A stretch of DNA of 20,874 bases from a virus. The position numbers and the translations under genes are program-made. The stretch is from positions 1-20,874 of IMG/VR virus record IMGVR_UViG_3300012936_000231; one strand, given 5' to 3'. A model generated the notes under the pieces. The model worked only from the letters and a program-made list of their open reading frames with translations, had not been told where the DNA came from and did no database searches. This document shows, piece after piece, positions 13,838-20,874 of the stretch (the first letter of the stretch is position 1; every line of letters begins with the position of its first letter).

Positions 13838-14599
13838 TTATCCTATAACGAAATTAAGAGGAATGTTGCCCTCTTCCATATTGTGAATACTATCTCTGAA
13901 ACTTTGCATTTCTTGTTGTGCTTCTGATTTAAGTGCCTCACCATTTAACTGTATGGCTCCACCGGCACCAGGTAGTCCTGATTGGTACTTGCTTCTTGCT
14001 TCTCCAAGCATATATTTAGACTGTGATAAAGCATATCCTGATAACCAGTTTGCGGCATAAACATCTGTAAGTAATATTGATTCTGGAATAAACATGTAAA
14101 CACCTACTGCAATATCTTCTTCATGTCTAACATTTCTTAATATTTTTAATTGTTTTGTATTTCTATTCCAAATAAAATTGTATTCACTACCAAAAATTCT
14201 ACCAATAGTTTCTTTGTATTGAGCAAAGGCATCAAATACTGCAAGTCCACCTATCTGTCCTGCTTGTAGCATATACATATTATTAAATGCTACATCAAAT
14301 GGATCGAAGTTAGTACCGCCACCACTATTGGTTCCAATACCTCTCCTGTAAAGACGTCTAACTTCCATAACTTCATCAGGTAAAGTATATTCTGTTACAT
14401 CTGTTTTTGTTTGGAAAAATATAACACTTTCCTCTACACTACCAGCACTTAACTGTCTGTATAGAGCAATAGCCTTATCTATAGCAACATCATAATGTTC
14501 TCTGTCTAATTCGACATCAATTATTCCGTCGCCTAGACGAATTTGCATCTCCTTTATGAGTTCTTCTCGGCTTTTATATCCTATTTGATCTTTTGGCAT
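13838..14599 (-). CDS. 13: Neck protein gp13-like (head-tail connector)
   Basis: Closes the filled head and provides the tail-joining surface; 253 residues against 309 in T4. The N-terminal ELIKEMQIRLGDGIIDVELD (13-32) parallels T4 gp13 'RRLGAPIINVELT', followed by a helix with AIALYRQL. The C-terminal signature is well conserved in order: LSGYALSQSKYMLGEARSKY (186-205), LPGAGGAIQLNGEALKSEAQ (209-228), then a helix and a hydrophobic end (NFVIG), like the T4 'LPGGVTIDGQRLIEEA ... ILVG' end. The middle is shorter than in T4. There is no Shine-Dalgarno; a late box GATAAATA ends five bases before the ATG. Confidence 0.87.
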   Translation of the reverse strand: MPKDQIGYKSREELIKEMQIRLGDGIIDVELDREHYDVAIDKAIALYRQLSAGSVEESVIFFQTKTDVTEYTLPDEVMEVRRLYRRGIGTNSGGGTNFDPFDVAFNNMYMLQAGQIGGLAVFDAFAQYKETIGRIFGSEYNFIWNRNTKQLKILRNVRHEEDIAVGVYMFIPESILLTDVYAANWLSGYALSQSKYMLGEARSKYQSGLPGAGGAIQLNGEALKSEAQQEMQSFRDSIHNMEEGNIPLNFVIG

Positions 14600-16070: not shown

Positions 16071-17027
16071 TTACTTACCTTTTGAAAATCTTTTGTCTAT
16101 ATTATGTGGTAATTCGTTTTCTAAAATATTTTTCCAAACAGTAATAGTTCTATCAAGTCCTTCACTGAGTTCAACTTTTGGAAACCAACCAAGTCTAGTT
16201 GTTATTTTATGATTTGTGCTATTAAGTAGATATATTTCTCCAGGACGTTTTGGTTTTGTGTTCCAATTAACATGCCCTTCCCAACCTATTTTATCAGCAA
16301 TTAGTTTTACATAGTCTTTAATTTTGATTGCATTGTCAGGACCTATGCAAAATATTTCACCTGCACATTTTTCAGGATTGTTTATAACAGTTTCCCATGC
16401 ATCTAATAAATCATCAATGTAAATAAAGTTTCTGTATGGCTCGCCATATCCTAAATTTATTTCTTTTGGATTTTTAAGCATTTGTGTAATAATTTGTTCT
16501 GTTACAAAAAAGTCGTTATCCTTTCTGCCATATGCATTTGTTTGACGAATTGCTGTAAAAGGTAATCCATAACTTCTGTGAGCATATTCCAAATATTTTT
16601 CACAGCCATACTTTGCAACGGCATAGGGGGCATTTGGATTTGGAGGTGTGGCTTCATTAAATGCAATTATTCCTTCCTCTTTTCCATCTCTAATTAAATC
16701 ACTTATTGGTTGCCAGCCATAAACTTCCATTGTACTTGCAAACACAAAGTTTTTTAAGTTTTTAAGTTTAGAGGCTATTTCAATTAAATTAACTGTACCT
16801 GTATAATTTATATCACTAAAAGTGATTTGCTCATAAAAACTTTGCTCTACTTCAGTTCTAGCCGCCAAGTGTACAATTATTTCAGGATCAAATGTAGAAA
16901 TCTGCATAGCAACTTTGGAATGGTCTCTTAAATCTTCTGATAAAAATCCAAGTTCATGATTGTCTTTTAATCTTTGAACCATGTGTTGGCCTATAAATCC
17001 GTCTGCTCCTGTTATAAATATTCTCAT
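16071..17027 (-). CDS. NAD-dependent sugar epimerase/dehydratase (extended SDR)
   Basis: A 318-residue extended short-chain dehydrogenase/reductase, the usual length for nucleotide-sugar epimerases and dehydratases. The NAD-binding GADGFIG (7-13) follows the first strand, and VHLAARTEV (52-60) is the typical 'HlAA' loop. The catalytic set is S98/T99 (FAST) and Y135-x-x-x-K139 (YAVAK). NAYGRKDN (164-171) and FIYIDDLLDA (201-210) are the substrate-domain 'N.YGp....' and 'f.yvdD' motifs. This points to a UDP-, GDP- or dTDP-sugar as substrate; which one cannot be told. The ATG overlaps the stop of the upstream oxygenase-like gene in an ATGA, with AGAGGA as ribosome site. It is the last gene of the metabolic cassette. 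Confidence 0.9.
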   Translation of the reverse strand: MRIFITGADGFIGQHMVQRLKDNHELGFLSEDLRDHSKVAMQISTFDPEIIVHLAARTEVEQSFYEQITFSDINYTGTVNLIEIASKLKNLKNFVFASTMEVYGWQPISDLIRDGKEEGIIAFNEATPPNPNAPYAVAKYGCEKYLEYAHRSYGLPFTAIRQTNAYGRKDNDFFVTEQIITQMLKNPKEINLGYGEPYRNFIYIDDLLDAWETVINNPEKCAGEIFCIGPDNAIKIKDYVKLIADKIGWEGHVNWNTKPKRPGEIYLLNSTNHKITTRLGWFPKVELSEGLDRTITVWKNILENELPHNIDKRFSKGK

Positions 17028-17566
17028 GTTAAATCCTCTGTTTTTGCAAATCCTGTTACTTGTAAAGTATATCTGTTAAAATTACTTACATTACTAAGAC
17101 AATGTGCTTTATCTTTTAAAATGTATGTGTAATCACCTTTTTTATAATCTGTAAACGAATGTTCTTCTATTTCTAAAAAATGTCCCATAATTTTATCTTG
17201 TAAAAAAACATTTACTCTTACAGGCACTTTATTTTTTATGTCCCAATTATTTTGTTTTGCTATATCATATAATCTATAAAATTTATCTACATGCGGTCCT
17301 GTAAATCTTCCAGGCTTTATGCAATTTACTGTAACTAATGGATGTTCTACAAATGGAAACATTTCTTTAATTTTATGAGCCCATCTAGGTGCAAACTCAT
17401 CATATGTTTGTAAAACTATAGGCCCGTCTTGAGGATAATCAGGAACAGGCATATTATTATCTTTCCAGTATCCACTACACCAAATACTATTTGATTCTTC
17501 TACAAATTTAGTAAGATATAATTCTCTTTCATCTAACCAGGATAGATCAATATGTCCTTTTATCAT
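17024..17566 (-). CDS. HxD...H oxygenase-like protein, copy 2 of a tandem pair
   Basis: A 180-residue protein with a double-stranded beta-helix (cupin-like) layout resembling 2-oxoglutarate/Fe(II) dioxygenases of the aspartyl/asparaginyl hydroxylase type. Candidate iron ligands are H92 and D94 (GPHVDK) and H155 (KAHCLSN). Basic residues at R117 (VRVNVFLQD) and R165 (NRYTLQV) could bind the 2-oxoglutarate carboxylate. GHFLEIEEHSFTDYKKGD (128-145) aligns with the neighbouring gene's product. The ATG overlaps the TGA of that neighbour in an ATGA. The substrate is unknown. The iron/2-oxoglutarate role is family inference, and the protein is short for a full hydroxylase but normal for a single-domain one. 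Confidence 0.68.
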   Translation of the reverse strand: MIKGHIDLSWLDERELYLTKFVEESNSIWCSGYWKDNNMPVPDYPQDGPIVLQTYDEFAPRWAHKIKEMFPFVEHPLVTVNCIKPGRFTGPHVDKFYRLYDIAKQNNWDIKNKVPVRVNVFLQDKIMGHFLEIEEHSFTDYKKGDYTYILKDKAHCLSNVSNFNRYTLQVTGFAKTEDLT

Positions 17567-18051
17567 TTGTATAATACCGTAACCTGTGCTGAGTAAAACG
17601 GTGCATCTCCCATATTACCTGCTATATGCCAATCATCACTACCAAATTTTACCCAATCTCCTTTACGCCATTTTGTAAAAGGTTGGTCATGTATTTCATA
17701 GTAATGTCCTCTTTTCCAATCTTCCAAAAAGATTAGATATCTGTAGCCTTCTCCGTCACCATGTTCTTGTTTTAATTTAAAATGTTTATCTACATGATGT
17801 GGAATTGTATTGCCTGGTAATACTTTTATAACACTTACAACATGATGGTCAAAGCCTTGAGGTATCTTGTGTGCCAAATTATGCACCCATTCTGGAGACT
17901 CCTCAAACATTTGCCAAATACTGCTATTATGTTCATTATAATATTCTTCTAATTCTTCGTACTGCTGATAGCATTGGAAGTAATCATCAAATCTTATATT
18001 CTCAAGTTGAGCATGAGGTATATCGATATTAATATTACCGTATTCAATCAC
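17563..18051 (-). CDS. HxD...H oxygenase-like protein, copy 1 of a tandem pair
   Basis: A 162-residue paralogue of the protein encoded at 17024-17566. Shared blocks are PHHVDKHF (84-91, iron ligands H86 and D88), YRYLIFLEDWKRGHYYEI (103-120), FTKWRKGDWV (125-134) and DWHIAGN (140-146, distal ligand H142). The likely class is a 2-oxoglutarate/Fe(II) hydroxylase of the aspartyl/asparaginyl hydroxylase type. The start is a GTG (18049-18051) that overlaps the amidinotransferase stop by eight bases, with a GAG-type ribosome site inside that gene. Translational coupling in this order suggests the two enzymes act in one pathway. The substrate is unknown. Confidence 0.7.
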   Translation of the reverse strand: MIEYGNINIDIPHAQLENIRFDDYFQCYQQYEELEEYYNEHNSSIWQMFEESPEWVHNLAHKIPQGFDHHVVSVIKVLPGNTIPHHVDKHFKLKQEHGDGEGYRYLIFLEDWKRGHYYEIHDQPFTKWRKGDWVKFGSDDWHIAGNMGDAPFYSAQVTVLYK

Positions 18052-19105
18052 AGTAACTCTCTAATGTACCTTTACGTCTTAGGTCTAATGTAGCACAATG
18101 TATGCCGCCAGAGAGCGTCATAGAGTGCCTAAACTGTACTGGCACACTATCTATACCGTACTTGTCAAGTTCCCTCATTAGAGGTTCTTGTGCAGAGTCT
18201 AAGATTACAGTATTTTCGTTTACACTTAGTAAATTCATTCCAATATAAGGTGAGCATGGTGCAATATATCCTTGCTCTGAAAGTTTACTGCCCTGTACAA
18301 CACAATCATCAAACCATATCTTATCCCACTTTTTAAACATTTCAGGACAATTTTCAGGTGTGACCCTACTGCTATTCATTAAAACAAGTCCAGGTCTAAG
18401 TGGTACAATAGTGCTATCAAAATGTGCAAAACTATAAAGTTCACTATAATGTAACTTATAACCCATAGGCTCTAATAATCTTTTCAGCCATTTGTAACCT
18501 TTCATATTTCCTGAGTTACTGACTTGATACAACAAGTCTGTTCCTACTCTTACAATGTTTGGTGCATCGAAACAAATTTCATGATCTAGTAATGTTGCAA
18601 CATCTAAATTATCAAACTGATACATATCGTCATGTAATTTAGGTTTAGGTGCTTCTAACCATAAGGCACCATCTTCAAATGCTTCATACATTATATCTTC
18701 GTATAAATGTTTTGCTTCAAAATACCTTGCTCTAACAGGAGTAGGTGTTTCTATTAACATATCTCCTAAAGGTAATATTAAATCTCTTGGACACCAACTG
18801 TACCAGCCTTTGGTGTTCCAACCTTGTCCTATATCATAATTTAAATTTTCCCAATCAACTATTTTAGGGCGGTGTACAATTACACCCATGTCTGCTAAAA
18901 CTTTTGCAAGTCCATCTGCATCTTCATTTGCTTCATCTATTACCCATTGAGGATATACTCCCTCTAATGGTTTAATTTGTTCTTCTGGGTAAGGTGCGTA
19001 ACTGAAACTTCTTGCTGAAATATCAGTTGCTATTCTGCTGTGGTGGGCATGTCCAACGATTATTTCCTCTAATTGGTCCCAATCGTTGTGGGAATTAACT
19101 ATCAT
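18044..19105 (-). CDS. Glycine-amidinotransferase-like enzyme
   Basis: A 353-residue enzyme of the guanidino-group-modifying family (AGAT, inosamine-phosphate amidinotransferase), which moves the amidino group of arginine to an amine. The full set of active-site landmarks is present: CPRD (105-108), CFDAPNIVRVGTDLLYQVSN (178-197) with D180, AHFDST (227-232) with H228 and D230, NLLSV (291-295) and GGIHCATLDLRR (333-344) with nucleophile C337. These parallel Asp254/His303/Cys407 of human AGAT. The acceptor amine cannot be read from sequence. An AGGAGA ribosome site precedes the ATG, and a late box lies 25 bases upstream, so this gene starts a late transcript that runs through the oxygenase pair and the epimerase. 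Confidence 0.88.
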   Translation of the reverse strand: MIVNSHNDWDQLEEIIVGHAHHSRIATDISARSFSYAPYPEEQIKPLEGVYPQWVIDEANEDADGLAKVLADMGVIVHRPKIVDWENLNYDIGQGWNTKGWYSWCPRDLILPLGDMLIETPTPVRARYFEAKHLYEDIMYEAFEDGALWLEAPKPKLHDDMYQFDNLDVATLLDHEICFDAPNIVRVGTDLLYQVSNSGNMKGYKWLKRLLEPMGYKLHYSELYSFAHFDSTIVPLRPGLVLMNSSRVTPENCPEMFKKWDKIWFDDCVVQGSKLSEQGYIAPCSPYIGMNLLSVNENTVILDSAQEPLMRELDKYGIDSVPVQFRHSMTLSGGIHCATLDLRRKGTLESYCD

Positions 19106-19130
19106 TATGTCTCCTGTAAATGTGTAATAC

Positions 19131-19138
19131 TATTTATT
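19131..19138 (-). promoter_or_regulatory. T4-type late promoter box AATAAATA (leadered class) for the amidinotransferase operon
   Basis: AATAAATA on the minus strand followed by GTATT, 25 bases before the ATG at 19105 with AGGAGA between. The TAA stop of the glycosyltransferase-like gene (19134-19136) is inside the box. It puts a metabolic operon under late-gene control. Confidence 0.75.
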
Positions 19139-20363
19139 GGAAATAGTTTTTATGTTTTACAGTTTCTGACATAATATTAAAATTGTGTTCACATATAGGT
19201 TTTACATTTTGTAAAAAAATCTTTTTATCATTATCTGACATATTTTGTATTTTTATCAATTCTTGTATTGCTGTATAATATCTTTCTATATCATCTTCTA
19301 TATCGTCGTAACTTTCATCTATCCAGGGGGAAAATGATTTATAACCAAATAATTTTTTCATGTTTTTTAAAAAATGCTGATTGTTAAAAATAATAAAAGG
19401 ATTTTTAAAATACATATTGTAATATGTTTTTTCAGTTACAAAATTAGTTTTAGGAACCACATAACATTGATTATTATGTGCTGTAAGATTATCTTCTATC
19501 ACTACACCTAATAAAGATTTTCTATATGTATCAACATAAGTTTTTCCCAATTTAAAGTTAAAATACTTATTTCCCACATATAATTTTTGACTATCGTCTG
19601 AAGTATGGCCAAATACATTATTAATATAAGTAGAGTCAATTTCATGTTCAAAACATTCTCTAAGCAAATCTATACTTTTGTGATTTTTATAAAAATTTAA
19701 TACTAGTTTTTTAAGATTAGGAGTAACTAATTTTCCATAACTATACTTTCCCTCTTGTAGTAAGTTAAAATGTTTAAGCATGTGCATTACAATTAATTTA
19801 GTGCCTCTTACTGCATTTGCATTTATTTGAAAATTATTTGTAATGTCTAGTTTAGTATTATCAACATTATTAATTATTTTAAGAGCATAAGGAAGAAATA
19901 ATTGAGAATGTATAATATTAATTTCTTCTTGCTCAATATCTATGTTAGAAGTTAAAAAGTAAATTTGTTTATGGAGTTGTTGTGGGAAATAATTTTTTAT
20001 TAAAGGTGTATAATTTATGTTTTCCATAAATTCACTAATTACTAATTTATTTGAAGGATCTGCAAGTAAATGCCTAATTAAAAATTTTAATGTTATTTTA
20101 TTACTTAAAATATCCTCAAATTTATCTTTATCAGATCTTATAAATCCTAAATTTATAATTATAGATTCTTTTGTAATTTTTTTAGATATTAAATTTTTAG
20201 ATAAATTATTAATAGAAATGTATTCAGTAGTTGTATATTCAGGATAGACATCAAAATATTTTTTTAAGGCTATTGTAAATTCATTTTCAATAAGATAATA
20301 AAAATCTTCTTCTTTTTGATTTTCATTTGCTACAATTATATTTTGAAAATGCTTAACAGTCAT
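19134..20363 (-). CDS. Glycosyltransferase-like phage protein, paralogue of the protein at 1179-2465
   Basis: A 409-residue, very AT-rich and Asn/Lys/Ile-rich protein with no membrane segment. Its C-terminal part has TEK (310-312), NPFII (321-325), FGYKSF (339-344) and WIDESYDDIEDDIERY (347-362). This is the same motif order and near-identical spacing as in the protein encoded at 1179-2465, while the N-terminal 300 residues are not obviously alike. The shared block recalls a nucleotide-sugar-binding lobe, so glycosyltransferase is a tentative call. The ATG lies 11 bases inside the end of the PLP-enzyme gene, with no strong ribosome site, so the two are probably coupled. Its stop codon lies inside the late box of the next gene. 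Confidence 0.6.
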   Translation of the reverse strand: MTVKHFQNIIVANENQKEEDFYYLIENEFTIALKKYFDVYPEYTTTEYISINNLSKNLISKKITKESIIINLGFIRSDKDKFEDILSNKITLKFLIRHLLADPSNKLVISEFMENINYTPLIKNYFPQQLHKQIYFLTSNIDIEQEEINIIHSQLFLPYALKIINNVDNTKLDITNNFQINANAVRGTKLIVMHMLKHFNLLQEGKYSYGKLVTPNLKKLVLNFYKNHKSIDLLRECFEHEIDSTYINNVFGHTSDDSQKLYVGNKYFNFKLGKTYVDTYRKSLLGVVIEDNLTAHNNQCYVVPKTNFVTEKTYYNMYFKNPFIIFNNQHFLKNMKKLFGYKSFSPWIDESYDDIEDDIERYYTAIQELIKIQNMSDNDKKIFLQNVKPICEHNFNIMSETVKHKNYFQ

Positions 20364-20874
20364 TTAACCATTCGCTAACACAAACTCTGTAATTACCGCT
20401 TACACCTCTGCTAAAATTTTTATGTCTGATATCATCTCCAAGACCAAAAATTACAGTATCAGTCCATACTAAGTCTTGCTCATGACAAATATTTTGATAT
20501 AAATCTATATATTTGTCCCAATTATAATCTGGGCCAAAATTTTTCATATACTCTACACCCAATGCCATACTATAATTATTAGCCATTTTGACTTCATTAA
20601 GCATACTAATACCATCATCTACATAATCTTTTGTAAACCTAATACCAACTCTGTGGTTTTCCAGAGTAAAGAATGGTTTGCTTAAACTACATGTAACTTC
20701 TTTTATACAAGGAAAAGCATCTAAATTTATGTGTACATGCTTTGCAATACCCCAATATGCTAAGTCTAAGCACACAGGTATATTATGTGCTACACAGATA
20801 CGCATTATGTGTTCAAAATCTGGATGTATGCAACCAAAATCACTAAATGGTGCACTTATAAGTAATGCATGTAA
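20353..20874 (-). CDS. PLP-dependent aminotransferase-like enzyme (partial, runs in from right edge)
   Basis: The frame is open from the right edge of the window to the stop at 20353, about 173 codons. An internal ATG at 20805 is not the real start, because coding-like sequence (LISAPFSDFGCIHPDFEHIM) continues upstream of it. The visible part is the core of a fold-type I PLP enzyme: IPVCLDLAYWG with the Asp that holds the pyridine nitrogen and a following Tyr, then TCSLSKPFF with the SxSK lysine that would bind PLP, then HRVGIRF, like the 'R.G' phosphate-contact motif of class I/II aminotransferases. The N-terminus is outside the window. It is coupled to the glycosyltransferase-like gene by an 11-bp overlap. 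The substrate is unknown; the SxSK form is not the usual one of DegT-type sugar aminotransferases. Confidence 0.78.
   Translation of the reverse strand, partial: LHALLISAPFSDFGCIHPDFEHIMRICVAHNIPVCLDLAYWGIAKHVHINLDAFPCIKEVTCSLSKPFFTLENHRVGIRFTKDYVDDGISMLNEVKMANNYSMALGVEYMKNFGPDYNWDKYIDLYQNICHEQDLVWTDTVIFGLGDDIRHKNFSRGVSGNYRVCVSEWLNDC

Follow-up and report, generated by a model that had tools for sequence, protein, structure and literature searches.

Phage-borne amidinotransferases are already on record, in Campylobacter phages, in cyanophage annotations and in an ocean-virus survey that discussed creatine biosynthesis (GATM, GAMT) and found GAMT enriched in viruses (PMC11360552). In Campylobacter phages CP220 and CPt10, amidinotransferase/radical SAM modules belong to a phage-borne exchangeable cluster (PMC2853527), while in Synechococcus phage S-SCSM2R an oxygenase adjoins an annotated inosamine amidinotransferase, with an aminotransferase relative and glycosyltransferases nearby. 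Nucleotide-sugar and glycosyltransferase islands of marine T4-like phages likewise contain epimerase, aminotransferase and glycosyltransferase genes, for which use on a surface or the virion has mostly been inferred. Here we analyse a viral DNA stretch of 20,874 nucleotides (IMG/VR record IMGVR_UViG_3300012936_000231), the whole of which we call the window, and within it a block of genes for a pyridoxal phosphate (PLP)-dependent enzyme, a glycosyltransferase-like (GT-like) protein, an amidinotransferase (AMT), two 2-oxoglutarate (2OG)-Fe(II) oxygenase-type proteins (OXb and OXa) and a sugar-active short-chain dehydrogenase/reductase (SDR). We propose, with a probability of roughly 0.45, that the block makes a guanidino-modified sugar or amino compound late in infection, which probably goes into a glycan of the virion or a surface.

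Like the block, the Campylobacter phage cluster includes an amidinotransferase, in CP220 with nucleotide-diphospho-sugar transferase-like proteins, but the CP220/CPt10 amidinotransferase is only 24-29% identical, the module centres on five radical SAM genes, and CP220 has no annotated PLP/oxygenase/SDR set alongside. S-SCSM2R differs in that its AMT is ~37% identical, a short DegT-like protein stands in for the class I/II-like aminotransferase, and its fixed set includes no SDR. Unlike the marine T4-like islands, the block is built on a conserved AMT core, carries a late element and is lost almost as a unit from one site. In the literature searched we found no account of a PLP-AMT-oxygenase module, its late control, loss of the block or replacement of its aminotransferase.

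The six open reading frames (ORFs) predicted by a first-pass annotation of the window were recovered exactly where it had placed them, all on the minus strand (Table 1). That annotation described genes reading one way, most with overlaps of 4-11 bp; four of the five junctions indeed overlap, by 11, 8, 4 and 4 nt, and the fifth is a 28-nt gap ahead of AMT, while the shared direction is weak evidence because nearly all genes of the window read the same way. Five core genes are kept in ~80 viral contigs with dN/dS values of 0.02-0.22, and the GT-like gene has values of 0.15-0.45; given this conservation and low dN/dS, we take all six ORFs to be real genes. Among named phages, the terminase (58% identity) and tail sheath (40%) are nearest to those of PA5oct-group jumbo phages, and a 250,519-base IMG/VR contig (L077, G001) holds the same region with a 98% identical AMT; we therefore read the window as part of the genome of an uncultured aquatic jumbo myovirus. 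A 3,736-base contig of the Synechococcus lacustris Tous assembly (L085) consists of the phage cassette (AMT identity 88%), and a copy of the lineage B type described below occurs in a Puniceispirillum metagenome-assembled genome (L086). These may be host leads or stray phage contigs.

Table 1. Positions of the block and its features in the window.
Feature	Positions	Strand	Basis or remark
Whole block, in a 20.9-kb virus record	16071-20874	-	
Nucleotide-sugar epimerase/dehydratase-type SDR	16071-17027	-	Pfam Epimerase, PDB 4zrm, motifs
OXa, 2OG-Fe(II) oxygenase, aspartyl/asparaginyl hydroxylase-like, HxD...H...R	17024-17566	-	Pfam Asp_Arg_Hydrox, motif
OXb, small double-stranded beta-helix protein, 2OG-Fe(II) oxygenase-like (HxD...H)	17563-18051	-	8-nt overlap with the AMT gene
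AMT, AGAT/StrB1 family	18044-19105	-	PDB 1bwd match, catalytic residues, dN/dS 0.02-0.04
Late-promoter-like element AATAAATA	19131-19138	-	ahead of AMT, at the start of the late run
GT-like protein, probable GT-B fold, variable slot	19134-20363	-	model pLDDT 88
PLP-dependent enzyme, fold type I (aspartate aminotransferase superfamily), 290-aa short form	20353-20874	-	truncated at its 5' end by the contig boundary

Related loci from uncultured aquatic jumbo phages (lineage A, ~80 viral contigs) keep the order PLP-(variable slot)-AMT-OXb-OXa-SDR. We called ORFs with a simple caller and sampled lineages as the best 80 matches; counts within a lineage do not represent independent events, because its contigs are related. 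In all 60 loci with three or more genes on each side, AMT is accompanied by PLP, an oxygenase and the SDR. AMT and OXb overlap by exactly 8 nt in 69/69 adjacent pairs, and overlaps of -8/-8/-4 are typical. The block occupies one site amid virion genes. One flank encodes the tail sheath stabiliser and a virion structural protein; on the other are two genes without known function, another conserved gene, a gene resembling nucleotide kinases, and those for the tail sheath and tail tube. The left edge of the block is at 16071, and both flanks are virion-gene regions with no sugar genes directly beyond. Past the gene for the tail sheath stabiliser, a membrane protein with CHASE2 and adenylate/guanylate cyclase domains is conserved (L077:2523-4592 and 36 others in cluster c15); it matches over its full length a PHROG of unknown function.

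We searched with the conserved gene at 13838-14599 and mapped losses on the tree of that gene. The block is cleanly missing from the same site in L384, L436 and L443, and L420 keeps the SDR alone, which amounts to at least two losses on the tree; in the other AMT-less loci inspected, the contig ends inside the block. Separate occurrence of the genes in other phages, named by the first-pass annotation as evidence that would count against it, is not the pattern we see; instead there is fixed synteny, whole-block loss and recurrence in other phage lineages. It is improbable, in our judgment, that only common descent keeps the genes side by side and that they form no single pathway. Lineage A synteny is inherited, and 2OG oxygenases are abundant in marine phages, as that explanation would have it, but near-unit loss on at least two branches speaks for a unit, as does the presence of PLP, AMT and oxygenase together in other surroundings and with an unrelated PLP family.

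The unit does not extend to all six genes. The proposed enzyme classes are supported, and synteny, translational coupling, block loss and recurrence uphold a unit of five, while the GT-like gene, which had been counted as a sixth fixed member, has 13 matches among ~80 loci, most at 35-48% identity. It is not a core member and occupies a variable slot between PLP and AMT. Its model has T4 alpha-glucosyltransferase (1xv5) as best PDB match (E = 1.9e-4, TM-score only 0.39), and the protein probably adopts the GT-B fold. This match, together with a QueE-like gene elsewhere in the 250-kb contig (a sequence reading with a weak radical SAM match), could indicate that the cassette serves hypermodification of phage DNA bases, the GT-like protein acting as base glycosyltransferase. 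We consider this very improbable: the GT-like gene is absent from most relatives, the structural match is remote and the block sits among tail genes. A distant paralogue of the GT-like protein (19% identity) is encoded at 1179-2465 of the window, just before the terminase gene.

AMT residues 2-351 align end to end with StrB1 of the streptomycin pathway (PDB 1bwd; 282 bits, E = 6e-83), more than 100 bits above the scores against AGAT, SxtG and HsvA (167-176 bits). AMT residues C337, H228, D180, D108 and D230 align to C332, H227, D179, D108 and D229 of 1bwd, leaving the catalytic and arginine-binding set intact. On the acceptor side, the SGN motif and A227 correspond to SGN and T226 of StrB1, a small residue before the catalytic His. 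Human AGAT belongs to the same family and has the same catalytic residues (~170 vs 282 bits), but its acceptor motifs VTN and NPM are replaced in AMT in the alignment to AGAT. By these residues the AMT pocket resembles that of StrB1 and not that of glycine amidinotransferases. Like AMT, StrB1 has a PLP aminotransferase partner in its pathway; the two systems differ in that the phage AMT loci have no adjoining kinases or inosose enzymes and their AMTs fall in separate clades. In the tree, phage AMTs form clades of their own outside the streptomycete sequences, do not group with StrB1 orthologues and comprise two separate groups.

These pocket residues bear on whether the block acts as auxiliary metabolism, with host arginine drawn off (toward guanidinoacetate/creatine, ornithine or polyamine metabolism) in support of replication. 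Viral GAMT enrichment in the ocean survey (PMC11360552) and the ornithine that the reaction would free are consistent with such a role. We nevertheless regard it as rather improbable, as AGAT-type pocket residues are absent, the block includes no methyltransferase, its control is late and not early, and the oxygenases and glycosyltransferases would be left unexplained.

AMT is also the most constrained of the genes compared, with a dN/dS of 0.02-0.04 against 0.12-0.15 for the tail sheath and 0.07-0.10 for the tail tube. Aquatic viral contigs commonly carry AMT genes, and three overlapping scans confirmed 93, 562 and 330 relatives. In single-sequence PHROGs searches AMT matches one PHROG of unknown function, and single-sequence Pfam, NCBIfam and PHROGs searches returned no functional name for PLP, AMT, OXb or the GT-like protein. 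No operon with the same gene set was seen among bacterial AMT loci, where ORF calling was crude in high-GC contigs. In unrelated phyla, a ~1,400-aa ORF repeatedly follows bacterial AMT genes (L116, L119, L120, L127, L139 and similar loci).

The first-pass annotation had placed the middle of the block under late control, which comparison of relatives bears out for the run AMT-OXb-OXa-SDR. Exact TATAAATA occurs twice in the window against 4.8 expected, which is chance level, so the claim rests on the relatives. There, a TATAAATA-like element of the T4 late type stands upstream of AMT in common with virion genes. Specifically, the 70 nt upstream of the gene contain NATAAATA in 49/49 cases for the tail sheath, 30/30 for the tail tube and 59/75 for AMT, but in none for OXb or OXa, against a background of 1.7% per 60 nt. 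Exact TATAAATA precedes 23 of the 75 lineage A AMT genes, compared with 1/49 tail sheath and 0/30 tail tube genes. Because the element lies ahead of AMT and not of OXb or OXa, AMT, OXb, OXa and SDR most likely form one late unit that starts before AMT. By analogy with T4, the element would function as a promoter.

Late control common with the tail genes could also fit direct modification of virion proteins, by side-chain hydroxylation and amidination of a protein amine. Asp_Arg_Hydrox-type enzymes are known to act on proteins, and radical SAM enzymes occur in relatives. To our knowledge, however, AGAT/StrB1-family enzymes act on small-molecule amines only, and such modification would need neither the SDR nor the aminotransferase; we give it very little credence.

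The association of AMT with an aminotransferase and an oxygenase recurs in two other lineages. In lineage B (L081, L174-L200), where AMT is mostly 53-63% identical and the surroundings are different, 21 of the 23 well-flanked loci have PLP near AMT and 22 have an oxygenase there, frequently together with radical SAM and GT-like genes. A fibre-like RRGT protein is found within ~7 kb in 10/20 longer loci; for the L181 fibre protein, one of these, a Pfam search gave an Mtd_N domain. In lineage C (S-SCSM2R type, L269-L348; AMT ~37% identical), the PLP family of lineages A and B was never found with AMT across 69 loci. Instead, a ~196-aa relative of DegT-type nucleotide-sugar aminotransferases, with the motif SF..K..xxGxGG, lies no more than seven genes from AMT in 66/69 loci, and an oxygenase is near AMT in 55/69. 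These DegT-like proteins are half the usual length and keep the Lys motif. Family-25-like glycosyltransferases, identified by annotation and sequence, are usual neighbours, and a nucleotide-sugar dehydrogenase and a NodU-like carbamoyltransferase also occur. That AMT is paired with aminotransferases of two unrelated families is the strongest evidence we have that the module serves to form an amine and then amidinate it. It is possible, though we hold this only tentatively and well short of even odds, that several aquatic phage lineages reached the same chemistry via unrelated aminotransferases and display a late guanidino (cationic) sugar or cyclitol on their virions or fibres. We know of no report of such a viral glycan.

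The PLP gene is complete in L080 and L077. Its product gave no usable match by sequence, but its model (pLDDT 93.3) matches class I/II aminotransferases in Foldseek at E ~1e-11. D154, Y157, K183, R192 and R280 are invariant in 34 relatives and are read as the equivalents of aspartate aminotransferase residues D222, Y225, K258, R266 and R386. A scan for PLP relatives returned mostly the same clade and gives no measure of how often PLP occurs without AMT; Pelagibacter phage Mosig has a PLP relative in a cluster with no annotated amidinotransferase. For OXa, 6/20 relatives match Pfam Asp_Arg_Hydrox (best E = 2e-4), and the metal triad HxD...H and a 2OG-binding Arg ~10 residues further on are present in 80/80. 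OXb has invariant HxD and H; the 2OG Arg is absent from its usual place, and R104 is invariant instead. PDB profile searches with the OXa and GT-like alignments returned nothing, and those with OXb only insignificant matches. The SDR matches Pfam Epimerase (E = 1.2e-40, 140 bits), has UDP-glucose 4-epimerase 4zrm as its nearest PDB structure and carries the extended-SDR motifs TGxxGxxG and YxxxK, the sequences STMEVYG and YAVAK being present in 75/75. The dehydration activity suggested for it earlier is not supported, as the Asp of the Asp-Glu pair of 4,6-dehydratases, (S)TDExYG, is missing in all 75, and all NCBIfam equivalog cut-offs were missed by far. On its sequence, the SDR is a nucleoside diphosphate-sugar epimerase-type enzyme.

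Two of these enzymes raise the prospect that the cassette yields no glycan unit but a guanidino amino acid in free form or a small natural product with a guanidino group, which the oxygenases would hydroxylate and which would act in or around the infected cell. PLP belongs to the amino-acid aminotransferase superfamily and has apparently kept the carboxylate-binding Arg, OXa resembles Asp/Asn hydroxylases, a family that also acts on free amino acids, and the related amidinotransferases SxtG and HsvA serve natural-product pathways. We think a free product unlikely, given the nucleotide-sugar SDR in the block and the sugar-type aminotransferase relative and glycosyltransferases of lineage C; no peptide synthetase or exporter was seen beside the block.

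For the late guanidino-sugar pathway that we favour, we infer an order of steps, a substrate, a product and a destination as follows. In lineage A, the SDR would supply or edit a nucleotide-sugar (or similar) precursor, on which the PLP enzyme would install an amine. AMT would then move the amidino group of host arginine to that amine, releasing ornithine, and OXa and OXb would hydroxylate the product or its acceptor. Finally, exchangeable glycosyltransferases would place the guanidino unit on a late-made glycan, most likely of the virion or tail and otherwise of the host surface. Since control is late and the block lies among tail genes, virion or surface decoration is favoured; similarly, the StrB1-like pocket and the sugar-aminotransferase relative that replaces PLP in lineage C favour an amino sugar or aminocyclitol-type acceptor.

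Several points weigh against this pathway. Most assignments come from sequence and synteny alone. R280 of PLP, read in lineages A and B as the carboxylate-binding Arg of amino-acid aminotransferases, could indicate an amino-acid substrate and not a sugar, as is possible for an enzyme of class I/II type. The GT-like gene is variable, so the block has no fixed transferase, and the SDR is missing in lineage B and seldom present in lineage C. Lineages B and C showed no late element ahead of AMT, and we noticed no sugar or cyclitol kinase of the streptomycin-pathway kind.

Viral AMT genes may be taken for metabolic genes of the creatine type or be listed as unknown; their membership in a cassette that is late, tail-linked and near-unit, and that includes aminotransferase and oxygenase partners, shifts the question to virion or surface chemistry. 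If our reading is true, the positive charge of the virion glycan would matter for how abundant aquatic phages adsorb, for their host range and for their evasion of defences; the predicted product, a guanidino-bearing sugar, is directly testable.

Elsewhere on the 250,519-base contig, a second large sugar/tailoring-like region (L360-L362; G001, ~157-183 kb) contains UDP-glucose dehydrogenase-type and carbamoyltransferase genes, with several consecutive proteins that have SPASM/radical SAM-like cysteine patterns, two of which were tested in Pfam. Phage csgGF genes without csgA are on record (PMC9004378), and L357:8694-13079 (G001, ~88.7-93.1 kb) carries CsgG and CsgF curli-pore genes and a gene for a FecR-domain protein. 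The locus also encodes two small secreted proteins; these are repeat-like and contain a few QxGxxN motifs.

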